Part shown: positions 21,547 through 42,212 of the stretch, piece by piece
Position numbering within the stretch: position 1 is the stretch's first letter
Layout: every line of letters starts with the position of its first letter
Origin: a virus
Virus record (IMG/VR): IMGVR_UViG_3300045119_000186
Coordinates: 1-42,388 of that record
Length of the DNA: 42,388 bases
Direction: 5' to 3' (one strand)
The notes under the pieces: generated by a model
The model's database searches: none
What the model was told of the DNA's origin: nothing
Seen by the model: only the letters and a program-made list of their open reading frames with translations
Translations under genes and position numbers: made by a program

Positions 21547-21647
21547 GACAGCGCTGCGCTCCGTCCGCTATAGTGCGGGACGACAGAGGTGTAGCGAGCA
21601 CCACTGCCGCCCCTAACCCCGAACCTTTGCGAGAAGGATCGAAGCTG
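21545..21647 (+). promoter_or_regulatory. Leader and promoter of endonuclease cassette 1
   Basis: ATGACA (21545-21550) and TATAGT (21569-21574) with an 18-bp spacer form a good promoter. A CCGC/GCGG hairpin overlaps the -10. CGAACCT (21620-21626) pairs with AGGATCG (21635-21641), covering the AGGA ribosome-binding site just before the ATG at 21648. The same hairpin precedes the endonucleases at 29575 and 41646. Confidence 0.65.
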
Positions 21648-22148
21648 ATGCCAGATACCCCATACCGTTACCGGCCGCACCTGAGTGCCTATATCAGGGA
21701 GTGGAAGGCTAAACAGCCGAAGGCTCCTCGCGTTCCTAAAACGGTCGAGGAAACTCGCGCCAAGAAAACCGCGTATATGCAGAAATATCGAGCCTCGAAT
21801 AGGGGCAAGATCAACGAGGCCCAGCGCGCAGGCTATGCTGCGAGAGGCAAACATACTTATGCGCACAAGACACGTAATAAGCTCACGAAGCACAACCATG
21901 TCCGCAACCTTGAACTGCTGGCAGCCAGACCAAAACCGGACTGCTGCGATGTATGTGGAGGAAATCGCGGCATGATCGTGTTTGATCACTGTCACCGGAC
22001 CAATCACTTCCGTGGATGGCTGTGCAATGGCTGCAATCGCGCGCTCGGTTTCGTCGATGACGATCCCCAACGCCTTAGAATGCTGGCGGCCTACCTGGAT
22101 CGGACAAAGAATGGCCAAGGTGCTCAATTCAACATCCCCGGCCTCTAA
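21648..22148 (+). CDS. Homing endonuclease, endonuclease VII type (cassette 1)
   Basis: This is a 166-aa protein. A basic N-terminal region (about 1-80) is followed by the endonuclease VII-type His-Me finger: CDVCGG, then MIVFDHCHRTNHFRGWLC and NGCNRALG. The two CxxC pairs bind zinc and the D-H-C-H segment is the active site. It lies on the plus strand among minus-strand tail genes and ends overlapping the convergent gene at 22145. Its position and orientation mark it as a mobile cassette. It shares a leader with two other endonuclease genes, and its nuclease domain resembles that of the 29575 protein. Confidence 0.85.
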   Translation: MPDTPYRYRPHLSAYIREWKAKQPKAPRVPKTVEETRAKKTAYMQKYRASNRGKINEAQRAGYAARGKHTYAHKTRNKLTKHNHVRNLELLAARPKPDCCDVCGGNRGMIVFDHCHRTNHFRGWLCNGCNRALGFVDDDPQRLRMLAAYLDRTKNGQGAQFNIPGL

Positions 22149-29574: not shown

Positions 29575-30060
29575 ATGCCACATGATGACGAAGCGACGCG
29601 GAAGGCAATCGCCTCCGCTTCTTTCCGCACTTGGGCGGACAAGAACAGCGAGTCTCGCGCTGCCTATATGCGGCAGTATGCTCAGGAAAACCGCGCCAGG
29701 CTTCGAGAGCACAAGCGTCGGTATCGCGAGGCAAACCGTGAGAAGATCAAGGAGGCCAACCGTAAGGCCATCCGAGACGAGAACGGCGAGATAACCGCCA
29801 AAGAGAGGGAGCACCAAGCACGTAACCGCATGCTGCGAGCATTGGCCTTGGATGCGATGGCCGAAAGGCCCCGCCCAGAGGTCTGTGATATCTGCGGTGG
29901 GCCACCGGACCCTAAGAAGGGAATGCACTTCGATCATTGCCACCAAACCGGAAAGTTTCGTGGGTGGTTGTGCCGTAAGTGCAATCTGATGCTCGGAAAT
30001 GCCGAGGACGACCCCTCCCGACTTAGGGAGGGTGCCGCCTACATCGAACGCTACCGTTAG
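29575..30060 (+). CDS. Homing endonuclease, endonuclease VII type (cassette 2)
   Basis: This is a 161-aa protein. A basic, Arg-rich helical N-terminal half (about 20-75) is followed by the His-Me finger CDICGGPPDP, then MHFDHCHQTGKFRGWLC and RKCNLMLG. It is convergent with the capsid gene: its stop lies eight bases from the end of the capsid 3' exon, while the intron begins 93 bases further on. It is therefore outside the intron. It resembles the cassette 1 protein in the nuclease domain and has the same leader. It probably cuts intron-less or cassette-less versions of this region; that is inference. Confidence 0.85.
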   Translation: MPHDDEATRKAIASASFRTWADKNSESRAAYMRQYAQENRARLREHKRRYREANREKIKEANRKAIRDENGEITAKEREHQARNRMLRALALDAMAERPRPEVCDICGGPPDPKKGMHFDHCHQTGKFRGWLCRKCNLMLGNAEDDPSRLREGAAYIERYR

Positions 30061-30068
30061 GCTATTCG

Positions 30069-31365
30069 TTACTGATTGAGGTCGAAGATCGTCGCGTGAG
30101 CTTTGGGGGCGGTGGGTCGTATGCAGCCCTCGAAAATCACGCCGCCTTGTGAGTTGTCTCCCTTTGTGTTCGCTGGAGGTCGCTGATCTCCAACCGCCCT
30201 TGCGGGCTGCTGCATGTCTCCATGCAGAACAGACTATCTCATCACCTGCCGTAGCAGGGCTGGGCGCTTCGCCGCGCTTGCGGCTACGGGGTTGCCCCCT
30301 AGTCGTTACACCTTCCCCTTGCGGGGCTTGGCTCGGTATTACGCACAGCTTTCCTGTTTGCGCCTTCACCGAATTCACCCAGTTTTCGACAGCAATCACT
30401 TGCTGAAGGACCTATGCCGCTATCGAATGACTGGCGTTGTCATTCGCCGCGGTGCGAGTCTGGGCATAATCCTGCTGGATCATATCGCGCTCTGGTAGTG
30501 GTGCCATCTCGACGTAGTCCGTAGATACGAGCAGGATTTGATGCGCTGGCATGAAGCGGTCTGGCGTGAGCTGCAAGGTGCCAAAATTCGTCCTGTACAC
30601 ATCCACCGCGCCCTGGATGGTCATCTCCCCGGTCGGTGATGCCTGCACGATGTTCTGAGCGACGATGGGATTTCCGGTCCCGCCCTGCGACAATGTCGCG
30701 AAATAATTCTTAATATTCCCGCTCATGATCCCAATGGTTGGATTGCCACCGGCTTGCCAGCACTGCTGGATGGCGGTGTTGACCACAGCGAGGGTGAGAT
30801 CGTAGGGGGTGCCGGCGGTGCCTGCGTTGGAGCCGTCACCGATCGGCATGACGCCAGCGCCGGCGCCGCGTGCGCCGAAGTTGGTGTAGCAGGGCAGGCC
30901 GCTCATGTGGCGAGGATCGGTGATGGTGCGCACCAATGGCGAGGTCACGGCCAGCTCGAGGTCGCGCTTAACCTCCATCCCGCGCAGGATTATATTGCGG
31001 TTGTACTCGTCTTCGCCCCCGACAACGTCCACCACACGGAGCGTGTTGGAGACACCGACAGTCCTGGCCAATATCTGGCAGACGTTGTTAAGTCTTACTG
31101 GCTTGATCACCGCCTGCATAACCGCGGTAAAGCCCTCGGGTTGGGCGTTATCTGCGGCTGGATTGAGTTCCTGCACGATCCATTCGGTCAGGACTTGCTT
31201 AGAACCGACGCGGGAACACGCTGATACTAGTGGTGTCTCGTCTGGGTCTATTTTATATATGATCGATGCGAGATCTTCTCGAACACCCACCGCTGCCGTT
31301 TCGATGTATGTTCCGCTCGGTGCCGCTCCTTGTGCGGGTACTGCCAAAGTTGCCTCCATTTGCAT
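30069..31365 (-). CDS. Major capsid protein, split by a group I intron
   Basis: Exon 1 is 31365-30457 (303 codons) and exon 2 is 30161-30069 (30 codons plus stop). Unspliced, the frame ends 45 bases into the intron at 30412. Splicing joins DYAQT to GDNSQGGVIFEG and ends KAHATIFDLNQ. The junction restores an A-x-TGD motif typical near the C-terminus of HK97-type capsid proteins of this group, and the new end looks like a normal capsid C-terminus. The body has a typical layout, with AAVGVREDLASIIYKIDPDETP near the N-terminus. The scaffold gene lies just upstream. Confidence 0.8.
30162..30456 (-). ncRNA. Group I intron (td-like, IA2 type) in the capsid gene
   Basis: Read on the minus strand, AACGACTA pairs with TAGTCTG to form P7. 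CTGCATG-GAGA-CATGCAG forms P9. TAATACCGAGCC resembles the Q region and CAGCAA/TTGCTG forms P2. The run from GAGATAGTCTG to ACATGCAGCAG and the 3' end GAACACAAAG parallel the T4 td intron, which ends GAACATAATG. The 5' exon ends in U (GACU) and can pair with GGUC to form P1, with an extended stem of CCGC/GCGG and AATGAC/GTCATT. It contains no ORF of its own. Confidence 0.88.
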
Positions 31366-31457: not shown

Positions 31458-31549
31458 GGTTGGTGCAAGCACTCCCGGGTGGAGCAGAAGCCACGCTTGG
31501 TCAGCCAAGCGACTACACGGCCCGCCCAGCCGGTTGGTGCAAGCACTCC
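31458..31549 (-). repeat. 18-bp direct repeats and a stem-loop in the capsid leader
   Basis: GGTTGGTGCAAGCACTCC occurs at 31458-31475 and again at 31532-31549, and each copy contains the palindrome GTGCAAGCAC. Between them a perfect 7-bp stem with a 4-base loop lies at 31494-31511 (CGCTTGG/CCAAGCG). The 226-nt gap between scaffold and capsid is long for this genome. It may hold an RNA processing or stability element, or a capsid promoter. No clear promoter was found. Confidence 0.55.
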
Positions 31550-41645: not shown

Positions 41646-42212
41646 ATGGCTGCTAAACCCCTACCCTCCGCTGAATATCTGCACCAGTGCTTCGACTACG
41701 ATCCGCTAACAGGTGAGCTGTGGTGGCGCGCTTCTCGACCACAAGAGCATTTCAAGCAGCCTTCCGGATGCGCCACTTGGTCAAAGCATTATGCTGGAAC
41801 GATCGCTGGCACTATCCGCCAGACACGCAACAAAAGCAGACACATCATTGTCAATCTTGGAGGCAATCTCTTCTACGCCCATCGCATCATTTGGAAGATG
41901 ACGACTAACCGTGATCCAAAACTGGAAGTAGATCACATCAACGGCGACGGATTGGACAACCGGTGGACCAACCTGCGCCTAGCTACCGGCGAACAAAACC
42001 GATGGAATGTCTCTTGGAACAAGCAGCGCATCCTGCCAAGAGGCGTCTACGCCCAGAAAATCCGCGGCATCCCAAGCGGCAACTATTGTGCTGGTGCATC
42101 CTACTGCAACAGACACGTCTATCTCGGCACCTTCGATACCCCCGAGGAAGCGGGCGCCGCTTACCGCGCCTACGTTACAGCGGAACGCGGAGAATTCTCC
42201 CGCACCGATTAA
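41646..42212 (+). CDS. Homing endonuclease, HNH plus AP2 DNA-binding domain (cassette 3)
   Basis: This is a 188-aa protein. The first 60 residues hold a FDYDPLTGELWWRASRP-type N-terminus. The HNH domain includes YAHRIIWKM, then EVDHINGDGLDNRWTNLRLAT. The C-terminal part is an AP2-type DNA-binding unit (GASYCNRHVYLGTFDTPEEAG and AAYRAY). This is the common HNH-AP2 homing endonuclease form, unrelated in family to cassettes 1 and 2. It interrupts the minus-strand small-gene operon and overlaps the convergent membrane-peptide gene by four bases. Confidence 0.85.
   Translation: MAAKPLPSAEYLHQCFDYDPLTGELWWRASRPQEHFKQPSGCATWSKHYAGTIAGTIRQTRNKSRHIIVNLGGNLFYAHRIIWKMTTNRDPKLEVDHINGDGLDNRWTNLRLATGEQNRWNVSWNKQRILPRGVYAQKIRGIPSGNYCAGASYCNRHVYLGTFDTPEEAGAAYRAYVTAERGEFSRTD

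Follow-up and report, generated by a model that had tools for sequence, protein, structure and literature searches.

The window analysed here, the whole 42,388-nucleotide stretch of a virus record (IMG/VR IMGVR_UViG_3300045119_000186), encodes on its minus strand an SU10-type major capsid protein, whose gene is interrupted near its 3′ end (Table 1). The start codon is either the ATG at 31365 or the ATG two codons later, a choice that is immaterial to the interruption. The leader that precedes the capsid start contains a perfect 18-bp direct repeat, GGTTGGTGCAAGCACTCC, at 31458–31475 and 31532–31549, 74 bp apart. An Endo VII-motif ORF on the opposite strand is convergent to the capsid gene and lies 8 nt from its stop; the DHHRN residues are complete and reside in the last third of the ORF (CDIC...FDHCH...FRGWLCRKCN). 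A second Endo VII-type ORF, oriented opposite to the late genes (21573–22148, plus strand; PF02945, 47 bits), shares 40% identity with the ORF next to the capsid gene, and an HNH_3 endonuclease ORF is located near the window end (41646–42212, plus strand).

Table 1. Coordinates of the capsid locus and of the helices predicted for the intron
Feature	Position	Strand	Evidence
5′ exon, SU10-type major capsid gene, codons 1–303, ends CAGACU	30457..31365	−	PF17236, phrog_1328
Group I intron, 295 nt, no endonuclease ORF, 3′ end ...GAACACAAAG, omega G 30162	30162..30456	−	RF00028, splice-pair scan, presence/absence in relatives
3′ exon, 30 codons and stop, GDNSQGGVIFEGCIRPTAPKAHATIFDLNQ	30069..30161	−	reading shared with intronless relatives
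Internal guide sequence GGUC, P1 with exon GACU 30460–30457 (U30457·G30412)	30409..30412	−	sequence, fold, invariant in 7 introns
P1 extension hairpin GAAUGAC/GUCAUUC, compensatory C-G/U-A change among relatives	30425..30445	−	7-copy alignment
P2 hairpin CAGCAA/UUGCUG	30390..30405	−	fold, alignment
P3 CUGGGUG 30382–30376 / CGCCCAG 30266–30260, encloses P4, P5, P6, P6a, P7 5′ strand, P7.1 and P7.2	30260..30382	−	RF00028, fold, alignment
P7 GACUA 30304–30300 / UAGUC 30236–30232, pseudoknot with P3	30232..30304	−	alignment
P7.1, GGGG/CCCC, between P7 strands	30299–30288	−	alignment
P7.2, GCCGC/GCGGC, two compensatory changes, between P7 strands	30284–30271	−	alignment
P8, one compensatory change	30258–30245	−	alignment
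P9.0 GUU 30230–30228 / AAC 30170–30168, and its domain	30168..30230	−	fold, alignment
P9; P9.1; P9.2	30227–30210; 30207–30196; 30192–30174	−	fold, alignment
Free-standing Endo VII-motif ORF, 161 aa, candidate homing endonuclease	29575..30060	+	PF02945 67 bits, phrog_2914

Boundaries and identity of the insertion

Read without splicing, the capsid ORF (31365–30412, minus strand) would end ...TRTAANDNASHSIAA, and its final ~14 residues are unlike those of intronless relatives. Joining 31365–30457 to 30161–30069 gives a 333-aa protein that ends ...DLNQ, with an increase in the PF17236 (SU10_MCP) score from 190 bits for the unspliced ORF to 215 bits. Dozens of intronless relatives in IMG/VR read ..QQDYAQTGDNSQGGV..FDLNQ and stop without interruption, which means that they encode the spliced product and not the unspliced end. 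Their protein identity across the 5′ exon reaches 96%, and AQTGDNSQ is continuous in them. No capsid relatives were found in bacterial genomes. All T/...G/ pairs near the Rfam match (15 × 42 = 630) were ranked by how well the translation of the spliced sequence scored against a capsid HMM, and the top pair was 30457/30456...30162/30161. This pair satisfies the U/G rule, as the final U30457 of the 5′ exon pairs with G30412 and the final base of the intron is G30162. An earlier sequence-only reading of the window had proposed the same junction, the same product and the unspliced tail, together with the intron coordinates, the P7 strands and the P9 hairpin of Table 1, all of which were recovered here.

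That reading had also assigned the insertion to group I, in agreement with an Rfam scan in which RF00028 was the sole RNA family detected in the window. The model matched 30439–30210 of the minus strand over its full length (1–253) with 69.6 bits (E 8.7e-16; gathering cut-off 50). The three introns of T4, used as a control, scored 105, 40 and 36 bits, so the capsid intron scores above two of them; because these two fall below the Rfam cut-off, intron counts obtained with that cut-off are lower bounds. Folding of the intron RNA was 4.2 s.d. better than that of shuffled sequences, and no endonuclease ORF was found within the 295 nt.

One could envision that the insertion is instead an intein, a translational bypass element or an assembly artefact, given that the case is built on sequence read from DNA only. 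We consider this highly improbable, as the insert carries an in-frame stop, matches the Rfam family with U/...G/ boundaries, and is present in some and absent from others among independent contigs of several metagenomes. The covariance model match, the structure with its compensatory changes, the exact restoration of the host gene upon intron removal, and the intronless alleles lead us to conclude that the SU10-type capsid gene is almost certainly interrupted by a group I intron, one that is endonuclease-less, IA2-like and, from the comparisons of carriers below, mobile. The 295-base RNA can probably cut itself out.

Predicted fold and splicing pathway

In an alignment of seven intron copies, 98.1% of the cells were paired, compared with 31.9–47.0% for slid partners. 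Four pairs were changed on both sides (one in the P1 extension, two in P7.2 and one in P8), against 0–1 for slid partners. Only peripheral helices covary, the P3–P7 core being invariant across the seven close copies, and P9.0 has one mismatch in the copies inserted at the second site described below (site B). No clear P10 pairing could be drawn for the site occupied in the window (site A). For site B, a 4-bp P10 (GCAU/AUGC) is possible in one phage only, L027, and was not relied on.

Judged by anatomy alone, without a subgroup-specific model, the intron is IA2-like, because two hairpins, P7.1 and P7.2, are predicted between the 5′ strand of P7 and the 3′ strand of P3. Over half of the group I introns of viruses fall in the IA2 subgroup (PMC11835236). 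The T4 introns of sunY (nrdD), td and nrdB belong to the same Rfam family and have the P7.1/P7.2 layout of the IA2 type; moreover, a 3′ end motif, GAACAyAA-G, is common to one T4 intron and the present intron. The resemblance to td that had been pointed out from the sequence is borne out by the T4 record, which has GAACATAATG at an intron 3′ end. In contrast, the T4 introns are hosted by nucleotide-metabolism genes, whereas the present intron is ORF-less and resides in a structural gene.

An in-frame UAG stop (30414–30412) overlaps the guide sequence, and its last base is the G of the U·G pair. The in-frame stop in such introns has been viewed as letting the ribozyme fold (PMC3984707), and the UAG here probably halts ribosomes short of the ribozyme core, so that the core can fold. 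In the pathway that we envision, the late transcript would fold with exon GACU docked on GGUC as P1, guanosine would attack after U30457, and exon 1 would attack after G30162, the ligation yielding the mRNA for the 333-aa capsid protein.

Insertion sites, movement and the neighbouring endonuclease gene

The intron is found at the identical position (site A, CAGACU/GG) in four other uncultured phages, L001–L004, the L002 sequence being truncated inside the intron. The same intron lineage is inserted 11 nt upstream (site B, AAGACU/AUGCGCAAACC) in L008, L011 and L027. Site A lies between codons, whereas site B splits a Tyr codon behind its first base; both sites end AGACU, and hence P1 is identical. 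The intron 3′ ends are GAACACAAAG at site A versus GAACAAUCAGG at site B. The site-B introns end AATCAGG/ATGCGCAA, resembling the exon sequence CAGCAGGAT that normally lies just upstream of the site, a likeness that is possibly a trace of the intron's change of place. An in-frame tail (AANDNA..AA followed by a stop) is conserved at both sites despite the differing codon phase, an observation that is only suggestive because its probability by chance is one in three.

Among the carriers, the introns are 91–100% identical, whereas the exon third positions are 50–83% identical, often only 50–60%. For example, the window and L001 share 97% in the intron and 55% at exon third positions, and the corresponding values for L008 and L027 are 96% and 53%. 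The capsid exon tree calls for five changes of intron state, and single clades were rejected for the site-A carriers (p=0.005), the site-B carriers (p=0.007) and all carriers (p=0.017), in a tree with some weak branches in which discordance could likewise stem from intragenic recombination in the capsid gene. The identity gap could be due in part to strong constraint on the ribozyme, an explanation that does not account for the tree. Because of the gap between intron and exon identity and the rejection of a single origin of the carriers, these comparisons indicate that the intron moves horizontally. Within 15 nt on either side of the site, the exons of the site-A carriers are 93% and 97% identical, compared with ~80% in intronless phages, and the raised identity is absent beyond ~90 nt. 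This local rise is compatible with short co-conversion.

The intron may spread via double-strand-break repair, possibly begun by the neighbouring free-standing Endo VII-type endonuclease. According to a collaborative homing hypothesis, the enzyme encoded at 29575–30060 would cut intronless capsid alleles at the site, and the intron would protect its own copy and be carried along in the repair. The precedent is cyanophage S-PM2, in which the gene of a free-standing Endo VII-motif endonuclease, F-CphI, lies outside the psbA intron; F-CphI cleaves the intronless psbA gene at the insertion site of that intron, and the intron blocks cleavage (PMC6083498). Likewise, the window combines an ORF-less intron with a directly adjoining free-standing endonuclease gene, and the motif of the ORF is C-terminal, the placement also seen in that study's endonuclease clade, and reads DHCH...R...CRKC-N. 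Endo VII ORFs are housed by same-core introns of DNA polymerase genes, and the elevated exon identity at site A is also in favor of the hypothesis, but it spans only tens of bases. Unlike the cleavage by F-CphI, which was shown, cleavage is only proposed here. Furthermore, Endo VII homologues adjoin the capsid gene not only in the window, L008 and L027 but also at no fewer than 18 intronless loci, and none was present in the examined flanks of the carriers L004 and L011, so the pair is not obligate. Intron and endonuclease thus do not consistently co-occur across the relatives, and their linkage is loose. We offer collaborative homing as a tentative proposal that we are inclined to doubt.

Alternatively, the ORF might be a phage resolvase or an unrelated free-standing element, the intron moving by ordinary phage recombination or through another endonuclease acting in trans. 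The loose association between intron and ORF fits this explanation, and the second Endo VII-type ORF and the HNH ORF of the window could supply a function in trans. However, a pair of Endo VII-type ORFs, both with the motif at the C-terminus, suits homing endonucleases better than one resolvase, and the intron recurs with codon precision at two sites in phages that have diverged, which suggests that the process is targeted. We give this alternative about an even chance. An arrangement resembling that of the window is known from T4, whose free-standing endonuclease gene segD, located between genes 23 and 24, is next to the major capsid gene and oriented opposite to it (PMC2988022); unlike the window ORF, segD belongs to the GIY-YIG family, and the T4 capsid gene has no intron.

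Introns in other phage capsid genes

The sequence-only reading had regarded an intron in a capsid gene as unusual, a view that is not supported, in light of published capsid introns and the survey below. The major capsid gene of mycobacteriophage LittleE contains a probable group I intron with U/G boundaries that is missing from relatives, and its splicing was demonstrated by RT-PCR and protein sequencing (PMC3706429). The LittleE intron differs from the present one in its length (819 bp) and its LAGLIDADG-like reading frame, and in the capsid family and insertion site. A published capsid intron of Tuc2009 is cited in the same paper. In phage C72C1 (OQ984150), an SU10-type capsid gene annotated as two head-protein pieces is split by a group I intron (81.8 bits), which lies near HMM position 113–116 and not at the 3′ end. 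A two-piece capsid match in Salmonella phage 7-11 (L082, HM997019) was considered as a split gene and rejected, as it represents two successive, separate major head genes.

IMG/VR was scanned for the intron core motif with a longer pattern, since a shorter one returned mostly chance matches. The scan yielded at least 84 distinct introns with this core, in a sample that is biased by the motif and includes related loci. Among the matches listed, ~44–49 of 79 introns adjoin capsid genes as judged from the downstream exon ORFs: 34 belong to phrog_283 (P22-coat-type major head), 10 to phrog_1328 (SU10-type) and up to five more to other major head families. DNA polymerase accounts for ~11 of the 79. 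Capsid genes are the commonest neighbours among these matches and are plainly common hosts of introns with this core. In L153, L158, L185 and similar loci, many P22-coat-type capsid genes adjoin same-core introns with an ORF of ~180 aa (GYQVLCMNCQVGKHKNGGVCPH), which ends beside the P7 motif and, at the limit applied, matched no Pfam family.

Introns of SU10-type genes reside near HMM positions 29–33, 58, 63, 97, 113–116, 125, 185, 245–258, 294 and 298, the positions of divergent ones being approximate. L154 and L179 have two group I introns per capsid gene, and L254 (IMGVR_UViG_3300043473_000123) apparently has three (~476–742, 947–1214 and 1401–1659). In silico splicing of L154, L179 and L254 restored full-length SU10_MCP matches of 213, 252 and 290 bits, respectively, the L254 product being 326 aa. 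Multi-intron capsid genes were not reported in the literature that we searched, which lay mostly outside subscription journals; a title cited in PMC6669764 refers to a single gene with three introns in phage Twort. It is conceivable, though we would not favor it strongly, that a dispersed IA2-type lineage has come to specialise in the major capsid genes of phages, across families that include the SU10 and P22-coat types, placing two or three introns in some of these genes, and that it spreads between phages by means of Endo VII/HNH endonucleases, free-standing or encoded within introns, whose targets are conserved capsid codons.

Capsid introns are thus recurrent in phages and already published, and the present intron adds to a known group; the multi-intron capsid genes are a more interesting by-product. 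For many phage capsid genes, standard ORF callers will give truncated or split predictions: the last 30 capsid residues were missed at the present locus, and elsewhere the genes appear as 2–4 fragments. Naturally occurring alleles with and without the intron, at two sites separated by 11 nt, constitute a system for testing homing and the re-targeting of a ribozyme.
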